DNA from: a virus
Direction: 5' to 3' (one strand)
IMG/VR virus record: IMGVR_UViG_3300034283_001558
Span: 1-22,540 of that record
DNA length: 22,540 nucleotides
Shown here: positions 183 through 21,323 of the stretch, piece by piece
Layout of the letters: every line of letters begins with the position of its first letter
How positions within the stretch are numbered: the stretch's first letter is position 1
Translations under genes and position numbers: made by a program
The notes under the pieces: model-generated
The model's database searches: none
Told to the model about the DNA's origin: nothing
The model's input: only the letters and a program-made list of their open reading frames with translations

Positions 183-964
183 TTTTTCTAAGTAAAAACG
201 GGCAAGACGAATATATCAACATGTTTGCACATGGATGCGGGGCAACTGCTGTGAGCACTGAAGATTTTGATTTCAATGCCAGCAGAGATCCCATAGTACT
301 GCGTGGTATTCTAAACAAAGTAATCAAGTATTGCCAACGATCACAACGAGACTTTTGGTACGTTGATTCAGGCTATTTTGGAAATACACCTAGTTCGGCC
401 AATCCCAACGGATGGAAGCACTGGCATAGAATTGTGCCAAACAATTTACAACATGGCAAAATAATTGAACGCCCATCAGATCGTTGGCAGCAACTGCAAA
501 TCAAACTGCAACCAAGAAAGTACGGTAGCAAAATTATCATAGCAGCACCAGACGAAAAACCCTGCAAGTTTTACAAAATTGAACAACAGCAATGGATTGA
601 ACAAACAGTGGCGACTATCAAACGCTACACTGACAGGCAAATAATAGTGCGACAACGAGCACCCCGGCGTGAAGATCGGGTACGATTGGATCCTTTGTCT
701 GCGGTGTTGGCAGATGATGTGCATGCATTGGTCACATACAACTCTGTTGCAGCAGTTGAAAGCATCATAGCAGGTGTTCCAGCGTTTACACTGGCTCCAG
801 TAAATGCTGCTGATCCTGTGGCCAGCCGCGGATTAGCCAACATAGACAATCCTAGTTGGCCTGACACTCTTTTGCGCGAAGCCTGGGCACATCATCTTGC
901 TTATGGACAGTTTCACATCAGCGAAATGCGCAATGGACAAGCGCACAAAATTTTATTTGGATAA
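179..964 (+). CDS. GT-B/capsule-synthesis-like protein, paralog 1
   Basis: This 261-residue protein is the first of three paralogs in the window (the others are at 1717 and 3438). The start chosen is the ATG at 179, which overlaps the previous stop and has AAAGGA just upstream; an upstream in-frame ATG at 161 lies inside the previous gene. Shared landmarks in the second half are an aliphatic strand (KIIIAAP), an IKRY-T-x-R-x-IIVR block, a VHALVTYNSVAAVESIIAGVPAF block and a Trp-rich C-terminus. The Y/W-N-S...GVPAF arrangement resembles the nucleotide-sugar binding half of capsule polysaccharide (Kps-type) GT-B enzymes. The usual HP after R is replaced by QRAP in this copy. The N-terminal part has YVDSGYFGN and WKHWHRIV, seen in many phage hypothetical proteins. 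A sugar-transferase role is inference from fold-like motifs and the glycosyltransferase neighbours. Confidence 0.55.
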   Translation: MIFLSKNGQDEYINMFAHGCGATAVSTEDFDFNASRDPIVLRGILNKVIKYCQRSQRDFWYVDSGYFGNTPSSANPNGWKHWHRIVPNNLQHGKIIERPSDRWQQLQIKLQPRKYGSKIIIAAPDEKPCKFYKIEQQQWIEQTVATIKRYTDRQIIVRQRAPRREDRVRLDPLSAVLADDVHALVTYNSVAAVESIIAGVPAFTLAPVNAADPVASRGLANIDNPSWPDTLLREAWAHHLAYGQFHISEMRNGQAHKILFG

Positions 965-967
965 AAT

Positions 968-1720
968 ATGACCAAAAAGTTTGTTTGTATAACATCAATG
1001 GATCAGACCTACTACGAAAAGTGTGGTAAAGCCTGCATCGAAAGTTATGGCATGCATTGGCCAGGTGATATTCCCTTGTACGTATACAATGAAAACATGT
1101 CCGAGCCTCCCAAGAACAAATGGACTCACTACGTGCCTTGGGCTGATATGCCCGCGGAATATTTTGATTTTGTTCAACGCGGGCACGGAAATCGTACTAT
1201 AACATTTGCCAAAAAAGCATTCAGTATTGTTCATGCCATGAACAACATTGACTGTGATCGATTGATATGGCTTGATGCTGATGTAGTGACCACAATGCCA
1301 ATTAACCCGCAGTTGCTTGACATGATCACACCAGACAACGTATTAAGCACACACTATGGAGTCAAGCACGACTGGCCTAGCGATTCTGATCCGAGTAGAA
1401 TCAGTTTCAGTTGTGAAACAGGATTTTTTATTGTAAACAAGAAACACGAAAAATTCCAGAACATGGCTGACCGTTATCTTGAGTACTATGATAAAGAACT
1501 GGGCAAAGATCTACGAAGATTCTATGACGGAGAAGTGTACGGAGCAGTGGTAGCAGAAATGGAAACAGCAGGTGTAAAGATGTTGGAACTCAATCCTGGA
1601 CAGAGACACAAAACACCTATACCTCGCAGTGTAATGGCCCCTTATATCATGCACTACAAAGCTGGTGCCAAAGATCCCTTTAACAGTGAAGACCTGTTGA
1701 AAAATCACAAACTTGTATGA
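968..1720 (+). CDS. GT-A glycosyltransferase (GT8-like)
   Basis: This 250-residue protein has a Rossmann-like N-terminal strand (FVCITSMDQTYYEKC), a central RLIWLDADVV block with the DxD metal/nucleotide-sugar motif at D103-D105, and the block SFSCETGFFIVNK that often lines the acceptor site in GT8-like enzymes. It ends with IMHYKAGAKDP, where the His may be the C-terminal metal ligand. It is expected to transfer a hexose from a nucleotide sugar in the cytoplasm of the infected cell; donor and acceptor are unknown. It starts three bases after the previous stop and shares an ATGA overlap with the next gene. No strong Shine-Dalgarno sequence is present, so translation is probably coupled. It is related to the minus-strand gene at 2619-3422 (same YYEK/YEKYG N-terminus and WLDADVV/WMDADTV core). 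Confidence 0.75.
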   Translation: MTKKFVCITSMDQTYYEKCGKACIESYGMHWPGDIPLYVYNENMSEPPKNKWTHYVPWADMPAEYFDFVQRGHGNRTITFAKKAFSIVHAMNNIDCDRLIWLDADVVTTMPINPQLLDMITPDNVLSTHYGVKHDWPSDSDPSRISFSCETGFFIVNKKHEKFQNMADRYLEYYDKELGKDLRRFYDGEVYGAVVAEMETAGVKMLELNPGQRHKTPIPRSVMAPYIMHYKAGAKDPFNSEDLLKNHKLV

Positions 1721-2622
1721 CCACAGTTGCAGTTTATCATTGTTCGGTACCTCCAGGCAATAAAAATTTAGAAAAGCCCTTGATACTCACTAACTTTGCA
1801 CAGGGAGTTAGACAAACGGGCGATCAGGTATTTGATGTTCGTGATCATCAATGTCGGCCTGCTGATGTTGGGGTAATTCAAGGATGGACTCACGAAATAG
1901 GCACAAGGCCGCATTTGAAACTGCGAGGAGATGCTATTCGTTCACATCGTCGGACTGTGGCTGTGGACAGCAACTTGTTTTTGTACAAGGACAAAACGAA
2001 TCCAGGCAATTATCTGCGTTATAGTTTCAATGGAATCTTTCCTACCACAGGCATCTACTGTGACAATCAAGTTGATCCTGCACGTTGGCAGCAGATACAA
2101 CGCGATTTAAAGTTAGCCGTGAAAGATTATAGATCACAAGGCAGTCATGTGTTGTTGTGTTTGCAACGCAACGGAGGGTGGTCAATGTCAGGTCTGGATG
2201 TAGTTGTCTGGACCCGATCTACTATACACACCATTCAACAGCACAGCAGTCGACCCATAGTAATACGAGCACATCCTGGAGACAAAGGTAGTGCAGAGTA
2301 TCTTGCACAGTTAAAAAACATGCCAGGTGTATCAGTCAGTGCACCAGGACGTACCATGGAACAAGATTTGGTAAATTGCTGGGCAGTGGTCAATTACAAT
2401 TCTAGCTCAGTGGTAGGTGCAGCCATAGAAGGTTATCCTGTGTTTGTTACAGATCCTACTAGAAGCCAGTGTAGAGATATTGCCAACACTGATCTATCAC
2501 AGATAGAAAAACCTGTATTGCACAACAGACAACCATGGCTTGAACGCATATCAATGTTTCACTGGAACTTTCAGGAACTTGCTTCAGGAGCCTGCTGGCG
2601 CCATATGCGTCAGTACGTTTAA
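1717..2622 (+). CDS. GT-B/capsule-synthesis-like protein, paralog 2
   Basis: This 301-residue protein is the second member of the paralog family also present at 179 and 3438. Its N-terminal half (TVAVYHCSVPPGNKN..., GVIQGWTHEIG, VAVDSNLFLY) resembles the first Rossmann-like lobe of GT-B enzymes. The second half carries IQQHSSRPIVIRAHPGDKG, then DLVNCWAVVNYNSSSVVGAAIEGYPVFV and a C-terminal HWNFQELASG. The RPIVIRAHP...WAVVNYNSS...GYPVFV order matches capsule polysaccharide synthesis proteins (Kps-like), where the HP and NSS blocks surround the CMP- or UDP-sugar. ATG 1717 overlaps the preceding stop as ATGA. Its stop overlaps the stop of the convergent gene at 2619 by four bases. The exact substrate cannot be told. 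Confidence 0.6.
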   Translation: MTTVAVYHCSVPPGNKNLEKPLILTNFAQGVRQTGDQVFDVRDHQCRPADVGVIQGWTHEIGTRPHLKLRGDAIRSHRRTVAVDSNLFLYKDKTNPGNYLRYSFNGIFPTTGIYCDNQVDPARWQQIQRDLKLAVKDYRSQGSHVLLCLQRNGGWSMSGLDVVVWTRSTIHTIQQHSSRPIVIRAHPGDKGSAEYLAQLKNMPGVSVSAPGRTMEQDLVNCWAVVNYNSSSVVGAAIEGYPVFVTDPTRSQCRDIANTDLSQIEKPVLHNRQPWLERISMFHWNFQELASGACWRHMRQYV

Positions 2623-3422
2623 TTCCAGTACTCTTCGGTTCTTTTGACCAACAGGTCTTTGTCTTTGCTGCGACCCAGGCTTTTGCGATCGCCTTTAAGG
2701 TGATCTAGGTATGCACCCCACTCTGAATTGATCAAAGGATGTCCTTCGCCCTTGATCAAATGACCTGACCAATCTAGTTCACGCAGGCCATGATTTTGTC
2801 TCACAACGTCAAACACAAACGAGTCGTGCCATTCGTCTAGCAAGAAGATACCTTGCTCAGCATCATCATAGTAGCGTTGAAAATCTGCTAGAAATCTTTG
2901 TACTCCAGAACTCTGCAGATTCATGGCATACAGCCCACATTCGCTGAATTTACCACGCCGTCCCAAAAAACACAATTCTCGGTCATTGGGGCACAGTTGA
3001 CTGATGTGGGACACACTGATAGGACTATGGCACACAGTGTCTGCGTCCATCCAGATCAACCAATCAGTCTGAGTGTGTTTTGCACAATGAAAAATGCTGT
3101 ATACCTTGTGAGCAAATCTCACAGCATCCCATTTGAATCCTTTGCCAGCATCCTTTCTGCGGCTGCGAACAGGATCTGCACTGACATCTCCATTGGCCTT
3201 GGGCACACCGTGCCACTGTGTTTTGAACTTTTTAAGCTCAGAACTCACTGACTCAAGATCATAAACAGTCAAATTAGGTGCCGACTGGTGAACATTGACG
3301 CCTTCGGCATACACAACCAACTGAACCTCCTGGGGCCAATTCTTTAAGAAAGTTTGTATCATGCGTTGACCATACTTTTCGTAACCTTCTTGGTTAAATG
3401 TTGTGACTACAGTGTAATTCAT
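2619..3422 (-). CDS. GT-A glycosyltransferase (GT8-like), minus strand
   Basis: Using the start MNYTVVTTF at 3422 gives 267 residues; a 13-residue longer form starting at 3461 would run into the divergent gene. DxD is at D126-D128 in DWLIWMDADTV, preceded by the conserved FAHKVYSIFHC helix and followed by ECGLYAMN, which corresponds to the ETGFFIVN block of the paralog at 968-1720. A basic insertion around residues 66-98 (KTQWHGVPK...RSRRKD) is absent from that paralog. The gene is alone on the minus strand, tail-overlapping the 1717 gene by 4 bp and starting 15 bp from the divergent gene at 3438. The shared 15-bp gap is AT-rich (CTATATAT). A role in transfer of a hexose or similar sugar is expected; the acceptor is unknown. 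Confidence 0.72.
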   Translation of the reverse strand: MNYTVVTTFNQEGYEKYGQRMIQTFLKNWPQEVQLVVYAEGVNVHQSAPNLTVYDLESVSSELKKFKTQWHGVPKANGDVSADPVRSRRKDAGKGFKWDAVRFAHKVYSIFHCAKHTQTDWLIWMDADTVCHSPISVSHISQLCPNDRELCFLGRRGKFSECGLYAMNLQSSGVQRFLADFQRYYDDAEQGIFLLDEWHDSFVFDVVRQNHGLRELDWSGHLIKGEGHPLINSEWGAYLDHLKGDRKSLGRSKDKDLLVKRTEEYWN

Positions 3423-3437
3423 AACTACTATATATCT

Positions 3438-4265
3438 ATGCGTGTGAGCCTTTTTGAACAATTCGGCGCCTTAAACAGTGGTCCTGTTTTCTCTGCCTTG
3501 CGGCAAGGACTAGCCGTGGCCGGTTTAAAACAGTCTACCGATGACATGACAGCAGATGTAGCAGTGATTTGGAGCATGCTATGGGCAGGTCGCATGCGTG
3601 GCAATCGGGCTGTGTGGCAAGCATACAGAAAATCAGGTCGTCCGGTAATAGTTGTAGAAGTGGGCATGATTCGTCGCGGATACACATGGAAACTGGGCAT
3701 CAACGGAACCAGCATTGACTCGTATCCCAATTCAATTGTGGATGTTAATCGTGCTGAGCACCTGGGTATAAAGTTGCAACCTTGGCAGCAGGGCAACAAC
3801 ATTGTGATTGCTGTGCAACGTGCAGACAGTGAACAGTGGGCAGGACAACCACCGATGACACAGTGGTTGCACAACACAGTCAACACCATACGCAAACACA
3901 CCAGTCGACCCATTGTGGTCAGATCGCACCCAAGGTTTAACATATCAATGCCGGACATTGTGGTAGAGCACCCAAAAAAGATAACCGGCAGTTACGACGA
4001 CTATGACTTTGACCAAACTTTAAAAAATGCCTGGGCCGTGGTCAATTGGAACTCAGGTCCTGGACCACAGTCTGTGATTGCAGGAGTTCCGGCATTTGTT
4101 GGACCCAGCAGCTTGGCAGCACCTGTGGCCAACCTGAATTGGTCCATGATTGAAACACCGCGCATGCCTGACCGCACACAGTGGGCAAATCAACTGGCCC
4201 ACACAGAATGGACCACACAGGAATTGGCCACAGGAGCACCTATTAAAAGATTACTGGGTATATGA
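3438..4265 (+). CDS. GT-B/capsule-synthesis-like protein, paralog 3
   Basis: The start is taken as the ATG at 3438 (MRVSLFEQFG, 275 residues), because the longer reading from 3354 lies antisense to the 2619-3422 gene. The family features are clear: NIVIAVQRA, then IRKHTSRPIVVRSHPRF, LKNAWAVVNWNSGPGPQSVIAGVPAFV, and a C-terminal HTEWTTQELATGA. The same order appears in the paralogs at 179 and 1717, which supports a gene-duplication family. The N-terminal half contains VAVIWSMLW and PVIVVEVGM, consistent with a Rossmann-like lobe. No good ribosome binding site precedes the start; the short AT-rich gap is shared with the divergent gene. Function is inferred as sugar transfer. Confidence 0.6.
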   Translation: MRVSLFEQFGALNSGPVFSALRQGLAVAGLKQSTDDMTADVAVIWSMLWAGRMRGNRAVWQAYRKSGRPVIVVEVGMIRRGYTWKLGINGTSIDSYPNSIVDVNRAEHLGIKLQPWQQGNNIVIAVQRADSEQWAGQPPMTQWLHNTVNTIRKHTSRPIVVRSHPRFNISMPDIVVEHPKKITGSYDDYDFDQTLKNAWAVVNWNSGPGPQSVIAGVPAFVGPSSLAAPVANLNWSMIETPRMPDRTQWANQLAHTEWTTQELATGAPIKRLLGI

Positions 4266-4292
4266 CGGTAAATATCTTCGACAAGGATTTAT

Positions 4293-4964
4293 ATGCACGA
4301 AATACACGGATTAGTATTCCCGTTTCAAGATTACTTTAATCGCTTTGGCGAAAACATCTTGGGATTTGGCCAAACCGCCAGAGACGAAACACTCAAACAC
4401 GTTAAGAATTTTAGAAACGCTGTGGACATTGGAGCACACGTTGGTATCAGTGTACATCAATGGGCACCACTGTTTGAACAAGTGTATGCATTTGAGCCCA
4501 TGATTGATCACTACAACTGTCTTGCCAAGAACACAGCAAAGTTTTCCAATGTAAAATGTTTCAACAATGCCATGAGCAACGAAAGCCGCATGCTGCATGG
4601 CGCCTATCGCACTATGAAAAACTCTGGAAGTTTTCAATTGGTCGATGACGAGTTTGTGGCAGTGAATCGAAAAAATGCCAAGATCTATGACATCCCCAGC
4701 AAGCGACTAGACGACTTCAAGTTAGACAATGTTGACATGATCAAAATTGATGTGGAAGGTTGGGAGTTTGAAGTACTCAAAGGTGCTGAACAAACAATTC
4801 GTCGTTGCCAGCCCATACTCATGGTTGAATACACACATGGTGGCGGCAGAGAAAACAAGAGCATGCATACCTATGATGTTGCTGAATATCAGGCATTTGT
4901 TAACAGCCTTGGCTATCGAGAAATTATTGAACTTGGTGGCGACACAATCTATGGACCAAAATGA
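4293..4964 (+). CDS. FkbM-family SAM-dependent methyltransferase
   Basis: This 223-residue protein has motif I of class I methyltransferases as VDIGAHVG (residues 44-51), an acidic strand-2 end YAFEP (66-70), and the FkbM signature IKIDVEGWEFEVLKGA (150-165), followed by ILMVEYTHGG. Family members usually O-methylate sugars or small molecules using S-adenosylmethionine. Here the neighbours are glycosyltransferases, so methylation of a transferred glycan is the natural reading, though not shown. AAGGA lies 5-10 bases before the ATG. The 27-bp gap upstream has a GTAAATAT stretch (4267-4274) that loosely resembles a T4 late promoter. Its stop overlaps the next start as ATGA. Confidence 0.85.
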   Translation: MHEIHGLVFPFQDYFNRFGENILGFGQTARDETLKHVKNFRNAVDIGAHVGISVHQWAPLFEQVYAFEPMIDHYNCLAKNTAKFSNVKCFNNAMSNESRMLHGAYRTMKNSGSFQLVDDEFVAVNRKNAKIYDIPSKRLDDFKLDNVDMIKIDVEGWEFEVLKGAEQTIRRCQPILMVEYTHGGGRENKSMHTYDVAEYQAFVNSLGYREIIELGGDTIYGPK

Positions 4965-5806
4965 TTGATAGTTTTCTCTACTACAATGAAACGGACCTGT
5001 TTTTTCTAAGGCTTGATTACTTAGATCAATATGTAGACAAGTTTGTGATTGTTGAAACAGACACCACATTCAGTCTCAAGCCACATGCCGCACAGTTTGA
5101 TCGAGTTTATCAGCAACTACCAGAGTCAATCAAACGTAAAATTGTGTACCACTACTTGGTAATTGACAAAAGCCAAATCTCCAATCCCGATCCAGAAGCA
5201 TTCAAAGATCAAAGCCGTTATGTGGAACGCATGATGCGTCAGGCTGTGGCCAATGTAGTCAGTAGTGTCAGCAGCAGTGATTACGTCATGCTCAGTGATC
5301 TGGACGAGTTCTGGGATCCTGCGCATCTTGATCAGTGCAAACACATGATCGATCAACGCGGCAGCATGTTCTGGGCACAGGATGTAAGATCGGGCTACAT
5401 GGACTGGCAAATGGACTACGGCCGTTGGCCTGGCACCAAATCTACTAGACTGGATATTCTGCCTGAACCCATGAACGAAATGTACTGTAGCAAAAACAAA
5501 ACCTGGGGCAAGTTCGGCGATGCCAAAATTGAAGCAGGATATCACCTAACAATGATGGGCAATACAGCTACCAAGCAAGAGCACATAGAATCTTTACGCG
5601 AAGGTCCAGGCTGGCAACACAAGCTGGGCAAAACCAGTGCAGAGATTGCGCAAGGTATGACCACTGGCAGTTATAATTCAGTGGTCAAAAAAGGCAAAAG
5701 CCGAGTGACAAAAATAGGCACAACAGGGTTGGATACTAGATTGGTCAGTTGTGCAAAAAAATATCCTGCACTATGGAGTGGTAAGTTGGATCCAGGCAAT
5801 GCCTAA
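4961..5806 (+). CDS. Glycosyltransferase family 17-like protein
   Basis: This 281-residue protein begins MIDSFLYYNETDLFFLRLDYL and continues VDKFVIVETDTTFSLKPH. That is the hallmark start of GT17 (beta-1,4-mannosyl-glycoprotein GlcNAc-transferase-like) proteins: a short strand, N-E-x-D-L, then VIVE...TFSG/LKPK. A DxD motif lies at D113-D115 in MLSDLDEFWDP, again typical of the family. In bacteria and phages the acceptor of GT17-like proteins is generally not known, so the eukaryotic activity should not be transferred. It is coupled by an ATGA overlap to the methyltransferase gene, and its last bases overlap the next gene by 8 bp. Confidence 0.78.
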   Translation: MIDSFLYYNETDLFFLRLDYLDQYVDKFVIVETDTTFSLKPHAAQFDRVYQQLPESIKRKIVYHYLVIDKSQISNPDPEAFKDQSRYVERMMRQAVANVVSSVSSSDYVMLSDLDEFWDPAHLDQCKHMIDQRGSMFWAQDVRSGYMDWQMDYGRWPGTKSTRLDILPEPMNEMYCSKNKTWGKFGDAKIEAGYHLTMMGNTATKQEHIESLREGPGWQHKLGKTSAEIAQGMTTGSYNSVVKKGKSRVTKIGTTGLDTRLVSCAKKYPALWSGKLDPGNA

Positions 5807-6539
5807 ACATCCTAGAGAACGCACTGACGATATAATTGACTGTGCCTGTGTGATACACGGTTCTGGTTATACTTGGCAGTATGTAGAAAAACTGCACAGT
5901 ATGTTGGAACGAGTGCGTCCCGGTGGTATCAGACTACATGTGTATACCGAGCATCATAGATCAGTTCCTCCGCACATGGTCAAGCACTGTCTGGAAGAAT
6001 GGCCTGGAATATCAGGACCCAAGAAGTCATGGTGGTACAAACTGCAATTGTTCAATCGAGACTTGTTCAATGGCAACCTGCTGTACTTTGATCTTGACAC
6101 TGTGATTGTGCGCGAAATTGATTGGATCACAAAACTGGATCTTGGCTATCTCTGGGCCATCAGGGATTTTCGTTATCTACAAACACCAGAAAAACAAGGA
6201 CTCAACAGCAGTGTGATGTGGTTCAATGTTCCACGAGTGGCCTGGCTCTGGGACGAATTCAAAGCCAAAGACTTGGCCACTACCATGCGTCGTTACCCTG
6301 GCGACCAAGATTACATACAACATCAACTGGGAGTGAATCGTTATAGGCTCATGCCCGACTGGCAGTTTCAAAGCTGGCGCTGGCAATGTGTAGACGGCGG
6401 CTATGATTTTCCTCGCCGTAGACACAAGATCCCAGGCGCAGGTATCAACATTGATCCGCGTACTTCTGTATTAGTTTTTCACGGGCACCCTAAACCGCAC
6501 GAAATTAACGATAAAGTAATACAAGATTTGTGGCAATAA
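5799..6539 (+). CDS. GT-A-like glycosyltransferase
   Basis: From the ATG at 5799 this is 246 residues; the longer in-frame start at 5751 is inside the previous gene and lacks a ribosome site, whereas CCAGG precedes 5799. The protein has an early CACVIHGSGYTWQYVEKL segment, RLHVYTEH, a KLQLFNRDLF helix, the metal motif YFDLDTVIV (D98-D100), a block LNSSVMWFN that probably lines the acceptor site, and GDQDYIQHQL. The last part, VLVFHGHPKPHE, supplies a His like the terminal ligand of GT8-type enzymes. It closes the glycosyltransferase island; the next gene begins a separate promoter unit. Donor and acceptor are unknown. Confidence 0.72.
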   Translation: MPKHPRERTDDIIDCACVIHGSGYTWQYVEKLHSMLERVRPGGIRLHVYTEHHRSVPPHMVKHCLEEWPGISGPKKSWWYKLQLFNRDLFNGNLLYFDLDTVIVREIDWITKLDLGYLWAIRDFRYLQTPEKQGLNSSVMWFNVPRVAWLWDEFKAKDLATTMRRYPGDQDYIQHQLGVNRYRLMPDWQFQSWRWQCVDGGYDFPRRRHKIPGAGINIDPRTSVLVFHGHPKPHEINDKVIQDLWQ

Positions 6540-7990: not shown

Positions 7991-9013
7991 ATGAGTGCCA
8001 TTCGTATTATTAAGGGCGAATACCGTAACAAGCCCGTTCGCAATATTGCTTTTACTTTGGTGTCAGGCTATGCCTCGGGCGCCAAAGGCAATTATGTTAC
8101 TGTCAAAAATGATGGTAACTTTCCCAACTGCCCGGATACAATCCGTATTAAGGTAGATTCCATCCAAAATTTTGAATATGTAACAGGAGATGCCGTGCAA
8201 GACAATACAGTACACTTTGAGAAACCCGCTGTAGTCGAGACAGATGACGAGGCCATGGATCGTATCCGTGAGCGTTTTGACATCCTGCACGAGATGACAA
8301 AGGCCACAGTGTCAGGCGACATCCGTGCTATGATTGTGAGCGGCCCTCCAGGTGTGGGCAAGAGCTTTGGCGTTGAGCAAGAAATTGACAAGGCCACAAT
8401 GTTTGACAAAATAGCCGGCAAGCGACTGCGAGCTGAAGTAGTCAAAGGCAGTGCTACCCCAATTGGCCTGTACCAGACCCTGTACAAATACAGTGACGCC
8501 AACAGTGTCGTAGTGTTTGACGACTGCGACAGTATCTTGTTGGATGACGTTGCTCTTAACCTGCTCAAGGGTGCCTTGGACTCGGGTAAGAAGCGTGTGA
8601 TCTCCTGGTTGTCAGAGTCTAGTGCTCTGCGCCGTGAAGGCATCCCAGACCGTTTTGAGTTTAAAGGTAGCGTTATCTTTATCACCAACTTGAAATTTGA
8701 CAAGATGAAGTCGCAAAAATTGCGTGACCACTTGGATGCCTTACAATCACGTTGTCACTATTTGGACTTGACCTTGGACACCATGCGTGACAAGTTGTTG
8801 CGTATCAAACAGATTGCCAAAGATGGTGTGTTGTTTGCAGACTACGACTTTAACGAGTATGCACAAGACGACATTATTGACTTTATGCATGACAACAAAG
8901 ACCGTTTGCGTGAGGTATCCTTGCGTATGGCGCTCAAGATTGCAGACTTGCGCAAGAGCTTTCCTAACAACTGGAAGCGCATGAGCGAGACAACTTGCAT
9001 GAAGTCAGCTTAA
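7991..9013 (+). CDS. AAA+ ATPase
   Basis: This 340-residue protein has Walker A GPPGVGKS at 118-125, Walker B VVVFDDCD at 173-180 and a sensor-1 strand VIFITN at 228-233. A C-terminal helical lid follows, with REVSLRMALKIADLRKS as the likely sensor-2 region. Residues 1-65 form a separate small beta-rich region (RIIKGEYRNKPVRNIAFTLV...YVTVKNDG). The layout fits a single-domain AAA+ enzyme acting on DNA or proteins. It does not match the T4 clamp loader gp44 well, since the expected arginine-finger SRC motif is not clearly placed and no gp62 gene is adjacent; SRCHYLDL at about residues 253-260 is a partial resemblance. From memory, similar ATPases occur in T4-like marine phages without a known role. 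It has its own promoter (7932-7960) and AAGGAG leader. Confidence 0.85.
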   Translation: MSAIRIIKGEYRNKPVRNIAFTLVSGYASGAKGNYVTVKNDGNFPNCPDTIRIKVDSIQNFEYVTGDAVQDNTVHFEKPAVVETDDEAMDRIRERFDILHEMTKATVSGDIRAMIVSGPPGVGKSFGVEQEIDKATMFDKIAGKRLRAEVVKGSATPIGLYQTLYKYSDANSVVVFDDCDSILLDDVALNLLKGALDSGKKRVISWLSESSALRREGIPDRFEFKGSVIFITNLKFDKMKSQKLRDHLDALQSRCHYLDLTLDTMRDKLLRIKQIAKDGVLFADYDFNEYAQDDIIDFMHDNKDRLREVSLRMALKIADLRKSFPNNWKRMSETTCMKSA

Positions 9014-9805: not shown

Positions 9806-10669
9806 ATGCCTCAACACTTGCTTATTGAGTTAGGCCATGACTCCCCTTTAACACTACGATTTCAACTGCTAGCCAATCCCATAACCGATCTATGGCTAGA
9901 ACGTATGAGTCAACGAGATACCTGGCCCTTGGATCATCCAGATAGATTTTATGGATTCGGCACCCCGGCAGAAGAAACTGCCCGCGCTATTGCCTTGATT
10001 AAACAATGCGTTGCAACCATAAACTCCTATGAGTACATCATACGGCATCCATTTACATTTGATCAAAACTGTTTGAACTATCTGCACAATATCTTTGAGC
10101 AGTATCACGGACTGTTAGACCAACAAAACACAAGATTCTGGCATCGTGCGCCAATGCCAGTTCGTGAGGCCTTGGCCACTTTAAACATTGCTGTGCATAG
10201 ATGTGAAAGTATACTAGGTTCTAATCCACATAGGTTTGTGTGCACCTGGTACGGCATGCCCAAAACACAACAGTTAGATCCTGTACTACAACGACAACAT
10301 GGAACCATGCGTATCAGGTTTGGCACTGTATATTTGAACTATGCTGAGATAGGCAAAACTGTGGAGGACCTTGCACACGACAATGACCAATACATTGGCA
10401 ACGATGCGTTTCGTCCGTTTGATCACTACAGTGCCGATTTTAATGTGGCATTTTACAATCAAGACCTGGAGTCTAAAACACCCAGCATGGCAAAATACAT
10501 ACAGGAACATCAGAAGTTTTTTCTTGCTCGTGGCATAGAAAACGTGTATAATACAAGAGCACTACCATTACGTTTTCCTCTTGCCCAGCTAGTCGAGACT
10601 GTGTCGCGCAGTGCCTTGCTAGCAGAGATTGCTCAGCGCCAGCTTGTAACAAAAGTAACATTAGAATGA
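9806..10669 (+). CDS. Conserved-type phage protein of unknown function
   Basis: The ATG at 9806 (MPQHLLIELGHDSP, 287 residues) is favoured over the in-frame ATG at 9782, which lies inside the promoter. The protein is soluble, rich in His, Tyr and Phe, with long helical stretches (EETARAIALIKQCVATINSY, REALATLNIAVHRCESIL). A central beta-like part follows with MRIRFGTVYLNYAEIGKTVEDL and DDQ/DNDQYIGNDAFRPFDHYSADFNVAFY, dense in Asp and His, and the C-terminus is helical. No domain is recognised. The clustered acidic and His residues could bind metal, which is speculation. Its stop overlaps uvsW as ATGA, so it is probably co-transcribed and coupled with that helicase. Confidence 0.8.
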   Translation: MPQHLLIELGHDSPLTLRFQLLANPITDLWLERMSQRDTWPLDHPDRFYGFGTPAEETARAIALIKQCVATINSYEYIIRHPFTFDQNCLNYLHNIFEQYHGLLDQQNTRFWHRAPMPVREALATLNIAVHRCESILGSNPHRFVCTWYGMPKTQQLDPVLQRQHGTMRIRFGTVYLNYAEIGKTVEDLAHDNDQYIGNDAFRPFDHYSADFNVAFYNQDLESKTPSMAKYIQEHQKFFLARGIENVYNTRALPLRFPLAQLVETVSRSALLAEIAQRQLVTKVTLE

Positions 10670-12135
10670 AACAATGCACAATACAAATACGTGATGAAGT
10701 CAATATCAAGATTGAAGGTCTGGATCTCGACTGTCGCAAAAAATTAGTAAACACATTCAAATACGATGTGCCTTATGCAAGATATCTTCCAGCGGTGCGT
10801 CTAGGACGATGGGATGGCAAAGTCAGTTACTTTCAACTAGGTGGATCTACCTACACAAATTTACTGCCCGAAATCATTCCTATTTTAGAACAGTACGACT
10901 ACGATATCGAGCTAGATGACCAACGTACATATTCTAATACATTTGATTTTAATGTAGTAGAAGAACTTACTTGGGCCCACAAGACCTGGCCCAAAGGACA
11001 TCCTGCTGAAGGTCAGCCTGTGATGTTGCGTGATTATCAAGTTGAAATCATCAATAACTTCCTACAGAATCCGCAGTGTATACAAGAAGTGGCCACAGGC
11101 GCAGGCAAAACAATTATGACTGCTACACTGAGTGCCGCAGTGGAAGCACATGGTAGATCAATTGTTATTGTGCCCAACAAAGATCTTGTGCGCCAGACCG
11201 AACGAGACTATGTAAACTTAGGCCTGGACGTTGGTGTATATTTTGGCGATCGCAAAGAATGGGGTCGTACACATACCATATGTACCTGGCAAAGTCTCAA
11301 TGTGCTGTTGAAGAACACCAAAGCCGGCGTAGGCGATTGCACCATACAGGATTTTATTGAGGGTGTGGTATGTGTCATGGTAGATGAAGTGCACATGGCC
11401 AAAGCAGATGCGCTGAAAACCTTGCTGACCAGTGTAATGGCGCAAGTGCCAATTCGCTGGGGGTTGACTGGCACAGTGCCAAAGGAAAAGTTTGAAAGTC
11501 AAGCACTGCTGGTTAGCTTAGGACCTGTAATAGGCAGACTGTCGGCTAATGAATTGCAACAACAAGGAGTGTTAGCACAGTGTCATGTTAACATTGTGCA
11601 GTTGATGGATCATGTGGAGTTTGCAGACTATCAAAAAGAACTAAAGTATTTGTTAGAGGAATCGGGCCGGCTAGATGCCATGGCGGCGTTGGTTCGTCAA
11701 GTAAACGAAACTGGCAATACCTTGGTGTTAGTAGATCGAGTGGCTGCTGGGCATGCCTTGGTCGAACGCTTGGGCGACCGTGCGGTGTTTGTTTCAGGCG
11801 CAACAAAATCCAAAGATAGACAAAGCGAATATGACGAAGTGGCCGAAGCAACAGATAAAATCATTGTGGCAACTTATGGTGTGGCTGCGGTTGGTATTAA
11901 CATTCCTCGTATTTTTAATTTGGTTATGGTCGAGTCTGGCAAGAGTTTTACCAGAGTCATTCAGTCAATTGGTCGTGGCATACGCAAGGCAGAAGATAAA
12001 GATCATGTGGAGATCTGGGACATAACTAGTACTTGCAAATTTGCCAAGCGTCACTTGACCAAACGCAAGGCCTACTACAAAGAAGCCAACTATCCTTTTA
12101 CACAGGAACGACTGGATTGGATGAAGCTGGCTTGA
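10666..12135 (+). CDS. uvsW: UvsW-type superfamily 2 DNA helicase
   Basis: This 489-residue protein matches T4 UvsW in length and layout. The N-terminal cap (1-100) contains YARYLPAVRLGRWDGKVSYF, which binds DNA in UvsW. Next come the Q-like motif LRDYQ (121-125), Walker A GAGKT (145-149), DEVH box (240-243), motif III GLTGT (266-270), and in the second RecA lobe VATYGVAAVGINIP and motif VI QSIGRGIRK (433-441). T4 UvsW unwinds R-loops and branched DNA, drives fork regression and ends origin-dependent initiation; the same role is expected. The start overlaps the preceding stop as ATGA. Its 3' end overlaps the convergent methyltransferase gene by 38 bp. Confidence 0.95.
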   Translation: MKQCTIQIRDEVNIKIEGLDLDCRKKLVNTFKYDVPYARYLPAVRLGRWDGKVSYFQLGGSTYTNLLPEIIPILEQYDYDIELDDQRTYSNTFDFNVVEELTWAHKTWPKGHPAEGQPVMLRDYQVEIINNFLQNPQCIQEVATGAGKTIMTATLSAAVEAHGRSIVIVPNKDLVRQTERDYVNLGLDVGVYFGDRKEWGRTHTICTWQSLNVLLKNTKAGVGDCTIQDFIEGVVCVMVDEVHMAKADALKTLLTSVMAQVPIRWGLTGTVPKEKFESQALLVSLGPVIGRLSANELQQQGVLAQCHVNIVQLMDHVEFADYQKELKYLLEESGRLDAMAALVRQVNETGNTLVLVDRVAAGHALVERLGDRAVFVSGATKSKDRQSEYDEVAEATDKIIVATYGVAAVGINIPRIFNLVMVESGKSFTRVIQSIGRGIRKAEDKDHVEIWDITSTCKFAKRHLTKRKAYYKEANYPFTQERLDWMKLA

Positions 12136-12865
12136 TCAATTCAAACAGTAGTATAGGACTAGCCCAGCCAAGTTCATTACAACGATACACAGACAGTTCT
12201 ACTGCAAAGCCAATTTTTTTTAGTTGTCCTATTAGATCCCAACCAAAATCTGAATACACCAGACTGCCTTGATCGCTGAGTGGATTGCCGTGATACTGAT
12301 CGGGCAGTCCTTGTTTTACTCGATCCACAGTGACAGCACCAGGATTACCGGCAAAGGGAATGGTCATAAACATACGGCCACCGGGTATGAGCACTCTATA
12401 ACATTCAGCAAACCCTTGCCAGGGATTGGCCACGTGTTCAAATACATCTTGACTCACAATAATGTCTATGCTGGCATCGGTAAATGACAAGTTTTCAACA
12501 TCTTCGTGACGTATACCAGGCAGTGCAGCATTGGGCATGTATTCGCTGCCAATCACGGTACACTTGTTGAGATTTTCCAGTGCCCATTTGTAGCTGCTGG
12601 TCACTTGTTCTTGTAAGTAAATAATATTTCTGGGTTGGGCAAAAAGTTTTACCGCAGTCATGACCACACGTTGTCTGGCTACTAGATTGCATTGCACACA
12701 TCTAGCACTCTCTCGGTAGACCATAAACAAGTCGGAACAATCAGAATCGATTGCAAACTCTGTGTTGTTGTTGCAAACTGTGCAGGTGCCATGCGATAAA
12801 AACTGTGACAATTCAAACGCTAGCGCAAGATCTTGCTGACAATAAATTGGTGTTTTGGTAATCAT
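12098..12865 (-). CDS. SAM-dependent methyltransferase with N-terminal Zn-ribbon
   Basis: The 255-residue product has two CxxC pairs, C28/C31 and C56/C59, that could form a zinc ribbon. A class I methyltransferase domain follows, with HEDVENLSFTDASIDIIVSQDVFEHV (120-145), the typical strand 4 of Methyltransf_11 proteins, and YRVLIPGGRMFMTIPF. The usual glycine-rich motif I is not seen; in its place stands IIYLQEQVTSSYKWAL, then VIGSEYMPN. From memory, a subfamily with an E-Q-x-T block and SEY acidic loop exists near sugar-biosynthesis genes, so the protein may still bind SAM. The substrate is unknown. The gene is alone on the minus strand, overlaps the end of uvsW by 38 bp and starts from a gap that also holds promoter P7. 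Confidence 0.75.
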   Translation of the reverse strand: MITKTPIYCQQDLALAFELSQFLSHGTCTVCNNNTEFAIDSDCSDLFMVYRESARCVQCNLVARQRVVMTAVKLFAQPRNIIYLQEQVTSSYKWALENLNKCTVIGSEYMPNAALPGIRHEDVENLSFTDASIDIIVSQDVFEHVANPWQGFAECYRVLIPGGRMFMTIPFAGNPGAVTVDRVKQGLPDQYHGNPLSDQGSLVYSDFGWDLIGQLKKIGFAVELSVYRCNELGWASPILLFELIKPASSNPVVPV

Positions 12866-14912: not shown

Positions 14913-15260
14913 ATGATTAGAAATATCACAGGTGGTGCAGGCATACACATCTCGGGCAGTGTGTACAATGCGCCTTATATTGACACCACTAGAGCCAGTG
15001 CTGGTATGGTTCGTTACATTGGCGGCAATCTTGAAGTTTACGATGGCAGCTCATGGTTGCCGTTGCAATCCAGCTATCCAACAATTGAACTGGACGGTGA
15101 AACACGGGAAATCATACGTTGGGCACAGAATCGCATGGTTGAAGAAGAACGTATGAAAGCATTGGCAGCCCAACATCCCACTGTAGCCGATGCCTTGGCA
15201 GCACAACAACGAGCTGAGGAAGCTGTGCGTATTGCTGTAGCATTGTGTGATGTAACATGA
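14913..15260 (+). CDS. Fibre-like/virion-associated small protein
   Basis: This 115-residue protein has an N-terminal part with SAGMVRYIGGNLEVYDGSSWLPL, close to the GxxRYN...GYDGTxW repeats of phage tail-fibre and appendage proteins. The C-terminal half is helical: ELDGETREIIRWAQNRMVEE, then MKALAAQHPTVADALAAQQRAEEAVRIA, a probable coiled-coil or trimerising helix. The beta-then-helix form suggests a small structural or assembly protein, or a chaperone-like accessory. It overlaps the next gene as ATGA. There is no late-promoter motif directly upstream, so expression may follow the upstream operon. Confidence 0.6.
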   Translation: MIRNITGGAGIHISGSVYNAPYIDTTRASAGMVRYIGGNLEVYDGSSWLPLQSSYPTIELDGETREIIRWAQNRMVEEERMKALAAQHPTVADALAAQQRAEEAVRIAVALCDVT

Positions 15261-15817
15261 GCGCAGATATTGACATTGACTTTGCTGACAGAGATCTTGT
15301 GTTGAAATTGATTCAGCACACGCCTGCACGACAAAGTGACGGTCGTCGGCACAATTCAGGAGTATACGTCACAGATATTCCGCAAGATCCTGTGAATCAG
15401 TGTGCAGCCATAGACTACGAAACAGCAGAACAACGTGGCTATTTCAAACTGGACTTCCTGAACATGAGTGTGTACAGTTTGATTCAAACTCCCGAACACT
15501 ACGAAGCCATGCTGGCTGCAACTCCACCGTGGAGCAGACTGTGGACTGACGCTCATTGGGTCAGTCAGTTGGCACACGTGGGCAATTACTATGATTTGTT
15601 GAAAGAAATGAAACCAGACAGCATACCAAGACTGGCTGCGTTTATATCAATTATTCGTCCGGGCAAAGCACACTTACAACGGCGTCCTTGGCCAGAAGTG
15701 TTTGCATCAGTATGGGATGGAGATACCAGTCGGGGCTATACATTCAAAAAGGCACATGCAATCAGTTACGCAGCCTTGGTAGCACTGCATATGAATCTTC
15801 TCAACCAAGACGTTTGA
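15257..15817 (+). CDS. Miniature DNA polymerase III alpha (DnaE)-like protein
   Basis: This 186-residue protein keeps, in order, several landmarks of the bacterial C-family polymerase. DIDIDF (4-9) matches the DnaE P-D-F-D-V-D-F motif with two catalytic Asp (E. coli D401/D403). H32-N-S-G-V-Y-V matches the HAGGVVI segment. YFKLDFLNM (62-70) matches KFDFLGL, with the third catalytic Asp (E. coli D555) at D66. LLKEMKPDSIPRLAAFISIIRPG (114-136) matches the LxPD...LxRPG stretch of the fingers, and FKKAHAISYAAL (163-174) matches FxKSHAxxYA. A normal alpha subunit exceeds 1000 residues; PHP, beta-binding and OB domains are all missing and the spacing is compressed. It may be an active minimal enzyme, a regulator or a relic. 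It overlaps the previous gene as ATGA and the convergent gene by 17 bp. Confidence 0.72.
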   Translation: MSADIDIDFADRDLVLKLIQHTPARQSDGRRHNSGVYVTDIPQDPVNQCAAIDYETAEQRGYFKLDFLNMSVYSLIQTPEHYEAMLAATPPWSRLWTDAHWVSQLAHVGNYYDLLKEMKPDSIPRLAAFISIIRPGKAHLQRRPWPEVFASVWDGDTSRGYTFKKAHAISYAALVALHMNLLNQDV

Positions 15818-16178
15818 CCAGGGTAATACTCTTGCGTTTGACCTTTTTGCGGGTAATATCACTGAGACTGCAAACAGGTCCGTGCAGAATTTCCAGATCC
15901 TTGTTGCTAAACGTGCGCAGGGTGTGACGGAATCTATCCCAATCTCCGCGTAAGAATATGTTTATGGGTATGCTACGATTGCTTTCCCACCACCAAGTGG
16001 TAGCTAAATCTAAAAACATCATCTTGTCTTGCTGGCTAACAATAGCCCCAAAGTCGTAGATTGTTGTAACAGAGTCGTCTCTGTTTTGTACTACTCCTAA
16101 ATACTCGTTGTTAGCATAGACGCACAACGTTATGAAAGGGTATTTTTCAGACAATTTTGCAAAGATATCGCTGCCCAT
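15801..16178 (-). CDS. Conserved T4-like phage protein, minus strand
   Basis: This 125-residue product begins MGSDIFAKLSEKYPFITLCVY and contains NEYLGVVQNRDDSVTTIYDFG, FLDLATTWWWESNRSIPINIF and RHTLRTFSNKDLEILHGPVCSLSDI, ending in a basic patch (RKKVKRKSITLVKRLG). I recall a closely similar family in T4-like cyanophages, always of unknown function, with the same W-W-W-E-S-N-R-x-I-P-I-N-I-F core. The C-terminal basic tail could touch nucleic acid. The gene is alone on the minus strand, overlapping the DnaE-like gene end by 17 bp and starting 21 bp from the divergent structural gene. Confidence 0.82.
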   Translation of the reverse strand: MGSDIFAKLSEKYPFITLCVYANNEYLGVVQNRDDSVTTIYDFGAIVSQQDKMMFLDLATTWWWESNRSIPINIFLRGDWDRFRHTLRTFSNKDLEILHGPVCSLSDITRKKVKRKSITLVKRLG

Positions 16179-17294: not shown

Positions 17295-18278
17295 ATGCTT
17301 GATATTGTTCAATACCTACCTGCAAAACGCAAAGCCAGTCCCAGCGGGTGGGTCAGTTTCAACGCTCCATGTTGTCAACACAACGGCAACAGCCCAGACC
17401 GACGTCAACGAGGCGGAATCAAAACAAACGAACAAGGCTGGAGCTATCACTGTTTCAATTGCGGATACACCGCCAGCTTTATCCTTGGCCGCTCTGTAAG
17501 CTTCAAGGCCCGTAGGCTCTTGAGTTGGCTGGGTGTGCCTGAACGAGATATTGAACTAGCTAACTTAGAAAGTTTACGCCATCGTAGTATCTACGGCATT
17601 GTGGAAGATCGACAACGTGTGGTCAATGCACTACAAGGCATTGATTTTGAAGAACGTGAGCTGCCACCAGGCAGTGAATTGATCACACAGGAACATCCCA
17701 AGTACTGGGACTACATTCGTGATCGGTGTGTACCTGAAGACTTTCCCATGATGACTCCTATTCGCACCGACGGAGTTCACTGGACCAGACCTTGTGTGAT
17801 CGTGCCGTTTACTCATGACAACAAGATTGTAGGATACACGGCTAGGTTTATTGACGGAGCCCGGCCCAAGTTTATAAGTGATCAGCAACCTGGATATGTG
17901 TTTGGTGTAGACCTACAACTGTCCAACTGGCAACATGTGTTGGTGATGGAGGGTATATTTGATGCACTCTGCATAGGCGGTGTGGCGGTCATGCACAATG
18001 AAATTAGCGATGCCCAGGCTAGAATGATCCGCGGTCTAGGACGGGAAATCACAGTGGTGCCTGATCAAGATCGAGCAGGATTGACCTTGATTGATCGTGC
18101 TGTAGAACTAGGTTGGGCGGTGAGCATACCCAACTGGGAAGATTGCAAAGACGTAAATGATGCGGTAAAGAAGTATGGACGACTTGGCACTTTGCTAACT
18201 ATACTTCAAGCCAGAGAAACCAGCAGAATCAAAATAGAATTAAGGAAGAAACAACTTGTTAAAAAATTACGGAGTTGA
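17295..18278 (+). CDS. 61: DNA primase (gp61-like)
   Basis: The 327-residue protein has an N-terminal zinc-binding region with C26-C27-x-H29 and C53-x2-C56 (ending HCFNCGYTASF), as in DnaG/gp61 primases that read the template. The Toprim catalytic core follows: VLVMEGIFDALCIGG (215-229) with the conserved Glu and D-A, then the DxD-like VVPDQDRAG (254-262), then ELGWAVSIPNWEDCKDVNDAVKKYG, the third Toprim acidic region. The gene makes RNA primers and works with the helicase encoded immediately downstream. Length agrees with T4 gp61 (about 342). The ATG at 17295 has no ribosome site and lies at the predicted transcription start of P8. Its 3' end overlaps the helicase gene by 23 bp. Confidence 0.92.
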   Translation: MLDIVQYLPAKRKASPSGWVSFNAPCCQHNGNSPDRRQRGGIKTNEQGWSYHCFNCGYTASFILGRSVSFKARRLLSWLGVPERDIELANLESLRHRSIYGIVEDRQRVVNALQGIDFEERELPPGSELITQEHPKYWDYIRDRCVPEDFPMMTPIRTDGVHWTRPCVIVPFTHDNKIVGYTARFIDGARPKFISDQQPGYVFGVDLQLSNWQHVLVMEGIFDALCIGGVAVMHNEISDAQARMIRGLGREITVVPDQDRAGLTLIDRAVELGWAVSIPNWEDCKDVNDAVKKYGRLGTLLTILQARETSRIKIELRKKQLVKKLRS

Positions 18279-19725
18279 CGTACAGCGTCTGTTCCTGGAA
18301 ATGATGTTGGAAGATGCACAGAGCTATGTGCGTGTACAGAACATTTATAACCCAGACAACTTTGATAAAAGTATACGCCAAGCAGCAGAGTTTATTAAAG
18401 AACACAGCGCCAAGTACAGCACGTTGCCTGATCGTGCACAGATCATTGCGGCTACAGGAATCAAGTTACAATCAGTACCTGACTTGAATGAAGGACACTA
18501 TGATTGGTTTATGACTGAGTTTGAAGCGTTTACCAAGCGCCAGGAACTTGAACGTGCAATTCTTAAGAGTGCAGACCTATTAGAAAAAGGTGAGTTTGAG
18601 CCTGTAGAAAAATTGATTAAAGATGCAGTACAAATTTCTTTAACCAAGGATCTTGGCACAGACTTTTGGGCCGATCCTGAGGGCATGTTTACCAAGTACT
18701 TTGATGCAGGCGGTCAGGTATCAACAGGTTGGCCACAAGTGGATAGACTGCTGTACGGTGGGTTTAGTCGCGGCGAACTCAACATCTTTGCAGGGGGTTC
18801 AGGCTCAGGTAAGAGTTTGGTCATGATGAACATTGCCTTGAACTGGGTGCAACAGGGCTTGCATGGCGTTTATGTTTCTCTGGAACTCAGCGAGGAACTC
18901 ACTGGCCTGCGCACAGCAGCTATGTTAACAGATATGTCAACTAAAGATATTCGTCGAGACAAATCAACAGCGGCCCTTAAAGTCAAACTGGTAGGCAAGA
19001 AAGCAGGCAGCTATCAAGTCAAAGCACTGCCAGCACAGAGTAACATCAATGACATTCGTGCGTTTTTGAAAGAGTATCAGATCAAAACTGGACACAAAGT
19101 TGACTTTATGATGGTGGATTACCTAGACTTGTTGATGCCCGTGAGTGCCAAAGTTTCGCCTAATGACTTGTTTGTGAAAGACAAGTATGTGAGTGAGGAA
19201 CTGCGCAACTTGGCCAAGGAACTGGGTATATTACTGGTGACAGCATCGCAGTTGAATCGATCAGCTGTGGAGGAGATTGAATTTGATCACAGTCATATTA
19301 GTGGTGGTATTAGTAAGATCAATACGGCGGACAATGTATTTGGTATTTTTACAAGCCGGGCTATGAAAGAGCGAGGCAAATATCAGATTCAATGTATGAA
19401 GAGTCGTAGTTCAACAGGTGTAGGACAAAAAATTGATCTTGAATACGATATTAACACTATGCGTATTACAGATGCTGGCGGGGACGAAGGCGGATACAAC
19501 AAACCGCAAAGTTCTATCATGGAATCAATCAAGGCCAAAAGTCAAGTCAAGGCTGCTGATGCTATCGAGGGTAATTCTGACAAATGGGAAAGAGCAACAG
19601 GAACCCCTGCCTGGGAACCAGCCGCCAGTACTAAAGGACGTTACTCCGATGACGTACAAAAAATCTCAGCAGATGTGCAAAGTAACAAGCTGAAACAGAT
19701 GCTGGGCAAGATCAAGCAGTCATGA
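18256..19725 (+). CDS. 41: Replicative DNA helicase, DnaB-family (gp41-like)
   Basis: This 489-residue protein is a gp41/DnaB-type hexameric helicase. The N-terminal part (1-130) is helical; the C-terminal RecA core starts with STGWPQVDRLLYGGFSRGELNIFAGGSGSGKS (Walker A at about 179-187). It continues with VYVSLELSEELTGLR, the Walker B FMMVDYLDLLMP (284-295), LLVTASQLNRSA with the sensor Gln, and a final IQCMKSRSSTGVG arginine-finger-like segment. A Gln/Asn/Ser-rich tail follows. The start at 18256 is TTG, with AAGGA nine bases upstream; it preserves the conserved start LKNYGVDVQRLFLEMML, whereas the first ATG (18301) would remove it. It overlaps the primase gene by 23 bp, and its stop overlaps the next gene as ATGA. 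Confidence 0.95.
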   Translation: MLKNYGVDVQRLFLEMMLEDAQSYVRVQNIYNPDNFDKSIRQAAEFIKEHSAKYSTLPDRAQIIAATGIKLQSVPDLNEGHYDWFMTEFEAFTKRQELERAILKSADLLEKGEFEPVEKLIKDAVQISLTKDLGTDFWADPEGMFTKYFDAGGQVSTGWPQVDRLLYGGFSRGELNIFAGGSGSGKSLVMMNIALNWVQQGLHGVYVSLELSEELTGLRTAAMLTDMSTKDIRRDKSTAALKVKLVGKKAGSYQVKALPAQSNINDIRAFLKEYQIKTGHKVDFMMVDYLDLLMPVSAKVSPNDLFVKDKYVSEELRNLAKELGILLVTASQLNRSAVEEIEFDHSHISGGISKINTADNVFGIFTSRAMKERGKYQIQCMKSRSSTGVGQKIDLEYDINTMRITDAGGDEGGYNKPQSSIMESIKAKSQVKAADAIEGNSDKWERATGTPAWEPAASTKGRYSDDVQKISADVQSNKLKQMLGKIKQS

Positions 19726-20675
19726 TTACCTGTATTGATGCTTTTAAGAATTTGAATATATCAATACAAAATGGTAAGCCTGCAATATCTCCATGCTGTA
19801 TTTCTCCGCCTGTGCTGGTAGAAAATTTAGATTTTGACAACAGTTATCTGAATTCTTTTAGAGAAAGTTTTTCTCAAGGAGTCTTGCCACCAGGTTGTTT
19901 TAATTGCAAGACTAACGAACAAGAAGGATACATCAGTAGGCGTATGGGCAGTAATCAATGGTACGCCGATCATGGACTGGCCAACAACTCAGTTGAATTA
20001 GTTAGAGTAGATTACTGGACCGGCAATACATGCAATCTTGCTTGTGTAATCTGCGGACCTCAGAACAGCAGCATGTGGCAAAAAGAATTAGGTATTCAGA
20101 AACCATCGGTGATCAATCCATCATGGAAACAACTGGATTTAACAGCATTGAAAGCGGTTCATTTCAACGGAGGAGAACCGTTGTTGAGTAAAGAACATGT
20201 GCAATTTTTACATGCTATTCCAAACAAGTCACAGGTTTACGTAAATTACAATACCAACGGAACTATTTTGCCTAATCAAGAGTTACAACAATTATGGGCT
20301 AAATTCAAGTTAGTACAATTGGATTTTAGTATCGATGATGTAGGCAACAGATTTGAATACCAGAGATATCCTGCCTGCTGGGATGATGTTGTTGCCAATC
20401 TACAATGGTACATTGATTTTGCTCCACATAATTGCATGTTTGCAGTTAATACCACAGTGGGCATATTGAACAAACATAACTTAACCAATCTTGATCAATG
20501 GTTAGCGCAGCATTTTAAACAATCAAGATTTGGTGATCCAATTGAACATCGCAAACAAAATGCATTGGGCAAATTCTCATTGGCCGCAAATGTTAAAACT
20601 GTAAAACATCAACTTGACATACTGGATCAACGGCGCAATACCAATTGGCGAACAGTATTTCCGGAGTTAGAGTAA
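19722..20675 (+). CDS. Radical SAM protein with N-terminal Cys clusters
   Basis: This 317-residue protein carries the radical SAM CxxxCxxC motif at C104-C108-C111 (GNTCNLACVICGP) and the SAM-binding GGEP at 150-153 (VHFNGGEPLL), with a later VQLDFSIDDVG strand. Upstream of the core are C25-C26 and C59-x2-C62 (CCISPP, GCFNCK), so a second iron-sulphur or zinc site at the N-terminus is likely; SPASM/twitch-like proteins usually have it at the C-terminus. Such phage proteins are thought to modify peptides or proteins through a 5'-deoxyadenosyl radical. The substrate is unknown. The start overlaps the gp41 stop as ATGA; the 3' end overlaps the oxygenase-like gene by 9 bp. A related protein is encoded at 21348. 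Confidence 0.9.
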   Translation: MITCIDAFKNLNISIQNGKPAISPCCISPPVLVENLDFDNSYLNSFRESFSQGVLPPGCFNCKTNEQEGYISRRMGSNQWYADHGLANNSVELVRVDYWTGNTCNLACVICGPQNSSMWQKELGIQKPSVINPSWKQLDLTALKAVHFNGGEPLLSKEHVQFLHAIPNKSQVYVNYNTNGTILPNQELQQLWAKFKLVQLDFSIDDVGNRFEYQRYPACWDDVVANLQWYIDFAPHNCMFAVNTTVGILNKHNLTNLDQWLAQHFKQSRFGDPIEHRKQNALGKFSLAANVKTVKHQLDILDQRRNTNWRTVFPELE

Positions 20676-21323
20676 AGGCCACACAGGTGCATCAGCAGTG
20701 TAGATAGTCAGTCCCAAAAGGCCGCTGTATCTCACCGCATCTGTGCGGTTCCATCCCTCGTGCCAGGTATAGTTGCCATTCTGATGCCACCAGCCGTCGC
20801 CAAAGTTAGTGGTCATACGCACAGGGTCGTCTCTCTGTTCTGTGCGATAAAAGTAACTGCTGAGATCTTCGGTGTCCTGATTACTAAAGTATACCATGCC
20901 AGTGGCAATCAGTTTGCGATAGTCTGTGTGTAACCCGTTCACAAAGCCTGGCATGTCACGAGTAAACTCAATGTGTGTTTGGCTTTGTCGAAACATGGTG
21001 TCTCGATCCATACCCCAAGCAACGTCAGTTCCGTTATAGTTGTCGTACATCCAGTTGATGCTTTGACGTTTGAACTCTGCACTACCAAAGTATCGGCTGA
21101 TAGCAGTTAGTTTTTTGTTTTCAAATTTTGGACTCAACACCTTGTAACGCATACCTGGCCAAGGATTGTGCCCAACAGGAGCCACATCACCGTGCGGTTT
21201 CCATTCTTCGTTTTCTAGTTCTGCAATGATGTCCTCATAGCTAAAAGGCATTTTGAGATGTAGCTTGCTCACAAGATAACGAATAGGGGTGAATATAGTG
21301 GATAGTTCTGTCATAGCATACAT
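20667..21323 (-). CDS. 2OG-Fe(II) oxygenase-like protein, minus strand
   Basis: The 218-residue product has a double-stranded beta-helix pattern with a possible iron triad H132-x-D134 (NGLHTDYRKL) and H188 (YTWHEGW), and R198 (AVRYSGLL) as the likely 2-oxoglutarate anchor. This arrangement is seen in phage 2OG oxygenases and prolyl-hydroxylase-like proteins. The N-terminal region (MPFSYEDIIAELENEEW) is helical. An ATG three codons in (21314) is also possible, and one at 21251 would cut 24 residues. It could hydroxylate a protein or nucleotide. It overlaps the end of the radical SAM gene by 9 bp and starts 24 bp from the divergent second radical SAM gene. Confidence 0.6.
   Translation of the reverse strand: MYAMTELSTIFTPIRYLVSKLHLKMPFSYEDIIAELENEEWKPHGDVAPVGHNPWPGMRYKVLSPKFENKKLTAISRYFGSAEFKRQSINWMYDNYNGTDVAWGMDRDTMFRQSQTHIEFTRDMPGFVNGLHTDYRKLIATGMVYFSNQDTEDLSSYFYRTEQRDDPVRMTTNFGDGWWHQNGNYTWHEGWNRTDAVRYSGLLGLTIYTADAPVWPLL

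Follow-up and report, generated by a model that had tools for sequence, protein, structure and literature searches.

An uncultivated phage encodes the probable catalytic C-half of a split, minimal DNA polymerase III alpha subunit

A 22,540-nucleotide stretch of viral DNA (IMG/VR record IMGVR_UViG_3300034283_001558, positions 1 to 22,540; hereafter the window) carries an intact open reading frame (ORF) on the plus strand at 15257-15817, running from ATG to TGA, whose 186-aa product is homologous to DnaE, the alpha subunit of bacterial DNA polymerase III (Pol III alpha). This protein (the C-half), together with a separately encoded N-half, probably constitutes an obligate two-subunit, thumb-less and PHP-less DnaE-type polymerase of T4-related jumbo phages, auxiliary to the phage family B polymerase (PolB). 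It is an example from an uncultivated phage of a kind already described: the passages of Iyer et al. 2021 (PMC7824862) on this system describe a split minimal Pol III alpha computationally in group 2.2 jumbo phages and propose it as a model of the ancestral Pol III. The exact break between the halves, the invariance at the level of residues, the count of partners in 31 records and the missing fingers arginine were worked out here and go beyond those passages.

The C-half gene lies between the gene of a UvsW-like helicase and those of a primase and a DnaB-like helicase. The features of this region are as follows.

10666-12135, plus strand: UvsW-like helicase with ResIII and Helicase_C domains (PHROG 16, DNA helicase), a neighbour in the replication/recombination cluster
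14913-15260, plus strand: small upstream ORF of 115 aa, whose stop codon overlaps the ATG of the 186-aa ORF
15257-15817, plus strand: the 186-aa C-half itself, the catalytic C-terminal part of a split minimal Pol III alpha (PHROG 11778, AlphaFold, Foldseek, hhalign)
15801-16178, minus strand: small convergent gene that shares 17 bases with the 3' end of the 186-aa ORF (PHROG 11637, unknown function)
17295-18278, plus strand: gp61-like DNA primase (PHROG 47, DNA primase; Toprim_2), a replication-cluster neighbour
18256-19725, plus strand: gp41-like DnaB-like replicative helicase (DnaB_C, E=4.4e-21; PHROG 19), a replication-cluster neighbour

The start codon of the C-half gene and the stop codon of the 115-aa ORF share the sequence ATGA, and translation of the two is probably coupled. 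A small ORF occupies the equivalent upstream place in several relatives, the convergent arrangement with the PHROG 11637 gene is common to most of them, and a similar gene order around the C-half is found in phages 121Q, RaK2 and CBB. Several other genes of the window were noted in passing. Two radical-SAM-like proteins (PF04055; 19722-20675 and 21348-22538) are encoded directly downstream of the replicative helicase, with a 218-aa minus-strand ORF (20667-21323) between them. An AAA ATPase of PHROG 1250 (unknown function) at 7991-9013 has weak matches to DnaC-like helicase loaders and to clamp loaders. Just after the UvsW-like helicase gene, the minus-strand ORF at 12098-12865 resembles by eye a SAM-dependent methyltransferase; 121Q, RaK2 and CBB have no methyltransferase gene at this place. 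Finally, a run of ORFs at 161-6539, including one that looks like an FkbM-like methyltransferase (4293-4964), resembles by eye glycosyltransferase and sugar-modification genes and may serve surface modification.

The 186-aa protein belongs over nearly its full length to PHROG 11778 ('DNA polymerase', E=1.6e-50). Scans of the single sequence against Pfam and NCBIfam returned weak matches only, all to Pol III alpha, and a single-sequence search of the PDB gave nothing useful; these gave no clear answer, and the assignment required profiles and structure. When 84 relatives were combined into a profile and this was searched against the PDB, nine of the ten matched chains were Pol III alpha; the motif order agreed, but E values were marginal (best 0.005). 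In an hhalign comparison, the C-half profile aligned with an alignment of nine DnaE proteins at P=96% and E=4e-9, pairing H32...R134-P135-G136 with H511...R639-P640-G641 of E. coli. The AlphaFold model of the protein has a pLDDT of 92.7, and the best 15 Foldseek matches of the predicted structure in the PDB are all C-family polymerases, the 16th having a probability of 0.05. Moreover, in the divergent orthologs of phages CM1 and XacN1, the DNA_pol3_finger domain is matched above the Pfam cut-off inside the C-half gene. Relatives of the C-half were found by tblastn in 63 cultured jumbo-phage records, with about 29-45% identity among the matches listed, and more than 570 were found per scan in IMG/VR. 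Five contigs of bacterial or archaeal metagenome-assembled genomes, one of them 335 kb long (PBPT01000016.1), also contain relatives and are likely jumbo-phage contigs wrongly binned with cellular genomes. GenBank labels the C-halves of GAP32, CBB, the SNUABM phages and Muenster 'putative membrane protein' or 'hypothetical protein', apparently a carried-over misannotation.

A preliminary description of the window had proposed DnaE homology from five ordered motifs. The motifs are present in the order DIDIDF, HNSGVYV, YFKLDFLNM, PDS...IIRPG and FKKAHAISYA, and the PHROG, hhalign and Foldseek results support the homology. Their positions and E. coli equivalents are as follows.

15266-15283, plus strand: DIDIDF motif; D4, D6 and D8 equal E. 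coli D401, D403 and D405
15350-15370, plus strand: HNSGVYV block, with H32 and G35 invariant; hhalign pairs H32 with E. coli H511 (KHAGGVVI)
15440-15466, plus strand: YFKLDFLNM block; K64 equals K553 and D66 equals the catalytic D555, both invariant
15614-15664, plus strand: PDSIPRLAAFISIIRPG block, with R134, P135 and K137 invariant; R134-P135 mark where the fingers begin and equal E. coli R639-P640
15743-15772, plus strand: FKKAHAISYA block; F163 equals F756 and H167 equals the steric gate H760

The metal ligands of E. coli DnaE are D401, D403 and D555 (PMC3919608), and its sequence reads M-P-D401-F-D403-V-D405-F; the ligands in the window protein are therefore D4, D6 and D66, with D8 equivalent to D405. 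The preliminary description had taken D6 and D8 as the first two catalytic Asp, one Asp too far along, and had correctly placed the third at D66. D405 is a conserved Asp in DnaE and an Asn in PolC (PMC3919608), so that D8 is of the DnaE type. The residue equivalent to H167, H760, is the steric gate against ribonucleotides (PMC8485763). Conservation was assessed in two overlapping sets, an alignment of 84 relatives and 93 sequences nonredundant at 90%. D4, D6 and D8 are unchanged in 93/93 sequences, as is H167 (93/93), and F163 is unchanged in 84/84; across these 84-93 diverse sequences D66, H32, K64 and R134 are likewise invariant, and the equivalents of the catalytic residues are retained in orthologs down to 29% identity. 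With dN/dS values of 0.04-0.10 among close relatives, the C-half gene is under strong purifying selection. These values and the invariance of the active-site residues reject random decay of the gene, as the preliminary description had argued.

The region of DnaE that precedes the first catalytic Asp is encoded elsewhere in the relatives. A search of long relatives with PF07733 gave one partial match per record in five, covering the first ~100 positions of the profile, and the matching ORFs encode separate proteins of ~170-200 aa. These N-halves match PHROG 11127 ('DNA polymerase'), have a predicted structure that matches C-family polymerases and carry GVGRGSxVxSY, the GRGS motif being present in 68/68. 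No PF07733 partner is found in the 22.5-kb window, whose contig is a fragment; judging from the relatives, the phage it comes from presumably encodes one. The N-half aligns with E. coli residues 319-393 and ends exactly one residue after EFL in 83/85 sequences. Most C-halves have a Met two to three residues before the first Asp, and some still read MPDIDIDF as in DnaE. The break therefore falls between E. coli L392-N393 and P400-D401, one chain stopping where the other begins. Among 311 sequences (the window and 310 loci), no natural fusion of the two halves was found, and none of the examined loci (up to 30 kb each) holds both. A split intein was considered as the cause of the split and rejected, as there is no extra sequence at either end of the break.

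The two halves accompany each other in jumbo phages. Of the large jumbo-phage records surveyed, 31/31 have the N-half and 30/31 the C-half; because a record was chosen for carrying one half, the count speaks to whether the halves go together and not to how common they are among phages. The record that has no C-half is a 262-kb contig and may be a fragment. Both long contigs whose C-halves are 77-84% identical to that of the window carry the N-half, and in cultured phages the best 60 tblastn matches of an N-half come from those groups of jumbo phages in which the C-half occurs. All 30 pairs have both halves on one strand, and the distance between them in linear record coordinates ranges from 14.7 to 324 kb, with a median of 84 kb. 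A family B polymerase is encoded by 19/21 large relatives. A DnaQ-like exonuclease was considered as a constant companion and rejected, being present in only 10/21 large records. In 121Q, the N-half lies close to a clamp-loader gene.

Compared with DnaE, the phage proteins are strongly reduced. The 186-aa protein has no PHP domain or C-terminal region, in agreement with the preliminary description, which had noted that the PHP, tau-binding and OB parts are absent. It also lacks the GRGS part of the palm. The ~100 DnaE residues between the DIDIDF motif and the H-x-x-G block, the thumb region, correspond to ~22 residues in the C-half, and the stretch from RPG to FxKxH is shortened from ~114 residues in E. 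coli to ~26. The latter deletion removes T680, Q687-E688-Q689 and R709, which are invariant in the nine-protein DnaE set. In line with this, PF17657 matches only short stretches in two divergent C-halves, and the fingers with QEQ and LRR(709) are incomplete. In addition, R396 is lost at the break between the halves, and three changes are invariant throughout the family: R390 to Glu, T377 to His and P642 to Lys. The PHP domain is nearly universal in C-family polymerases (PMC12926913, PMC3919608) and has no match in 21 large relatives; nor did searches with PF17657 and PHP profiles reveal in these phages a complete DnaE or a PHP protein encoded on its own. Given the loss of R709 and QEQ, of R396 and of the thumb, together with the invariant substitutions, handling of nucleotide and DNA must differ from that of DnaE, or the activity may be altered.

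We infer that the two chains assemble, most likely non-covalently, into one nucleotidyltransferase active site. The C-half would supply the three metal-binding Asp, the steric gate, the residues on the template and nucleotide side and the start of the fingers, and the N-half the preceding part of the palm with GVGRGS for the triphosphate. The pair would probably act as a distributive auxiliary polymerase, because it has no PHP domain, thumb, OB fold or clamp-binding part and is missing the QEQ/LRRAMGKK segment of the fingers. It could extend primers or fill gaps alongside the family B replicase and the primase-helicase of the phage. The preliminary description had offered a compact enzyme as one reading; this holds in part, since the unit is split and does not stand alone, the GRGS part of the palm coming from a second gene in 31/31 large relatives.

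The main rival to an auxiliary polymerase, though an unlikely one, is that the halves assemble and catalyse another nucleotidyl transfer, such as template-independent tailing, primer synthesis or nucleotide signalling, since the thumb has been lost and the dNTP-binding fingers are incomplete. The deleted fingers stretch with T680, QEQ and R709, the family-wide R390 to Glu and P642 to Lys changes and the absence of thumb and PHP would all fit such a reaction. A template-directed polymerase is favoured by the invariance of the equivalent of H760, the residue that selects dNTP over rNTP, by the retained RPG block on the template side and by the location of the genes among replication genes.

A relic that has kept its fold but is catalytically idle, serving a structural or regulatory role such as replisome assembly in the phage, would explain why several DnaE-invariant residues are missing and why PolB is present as the presumed main replicase. 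This is quite improbable, as relics usually lose exactly those residues that are invariant here down to 29% identity, namely the metal-binding Asp and the equivalents of K553, H511 and H760. It is also hardly credible that the protein is a decoy or inhibitor of host Pol III, taking template, dNTP or subunits in competition with the host DnaE, as might be imagined for a phage-encoded fragment of a replicase of host type. The phage protein lacks the regions with which DnaE binds the clamp, tau, epsilon and theta, its conserved residues are catalytic and not at interfaces, and a complementary second fragment occurs in 31/31 large records. The decoy or regulator suggested in the preliminary description thus finds no support in a protein with invariant catalytic residues and steric gate, low dN/dS and an accompanying partner half.

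The two-subunit polymerase favoured here agrees with what was known of these phages, answering a question that the preliminary description had raised. In the relevant passages of Iyer et al. (PMC7824862), the system consists of two stand-alone proteins encoded by distant genes, an N-terminal NTP-binding and a C-terminal Mg2+- and template-binding one, alongside a family B polymerase; the window ORF matches the C-terminal part, and no difference of kind from the system in those passages was found. Nor does the window ORF differ from its family, PHROG 11778, or the relatives' N-halves from theirs, PHROG 11127. Earlier genome papers called CBB_328 (172 aa) a truncated Pol III alpha and Atu_ph07 gp316 a Pol III alpha subunit; both Rak2-like proteins share with the window ORF the resemblance to Pol III alpha, and CBB_328 also the small size. 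By its annotation CBB_328 appears to be an N-half, and the C-half of the same genome, FDG95_gp287, matches the window ORF. E. coli DnaE1 is alike in the order and identity of the active-site motifs, in the predicted palm fold and in the start of the fingers, but is a single chain of 1160 aa, whereas the phage pair has ~360 aa in two chains, has lost most of the fingers and is without PHP, thumb, OB and clamp-binding regions. In cyanobacteria, two genes encode parts of one alpha subunit in the split-intein DnaE, with the break at another place than in the phage pair. The phage halves differ from it in having no intein after the N-half or before the C-half, the N-halves stopping one or two residues after EFL. 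Searches of the open-licence literature found no biochemical test of a split Pol III alpha.

In summary, the window adds the C-half of an uncultivated phage to the split Pol III alpha family of jumbo phages. It is conceivable, if still doubtful, that an active pair of ~360 residues is the smallest C-family enzyme, an obligate non-covalent heterodimer split in the palm and devoid of thumb, PHP and the fingers arginine, which hands primers from primase to PolB and represents a reduced or primitive form of the replicase. Should the pair prove active, it would delimit the smallest set of parts needed for the active site of the bacterial replicase, would demonstrate that a polymerase palm can work when split between genes tens to hundreds of kilobases apart, and would illustrate how a C-family enzyme and a family B replicase are combined in a jumbo phage.
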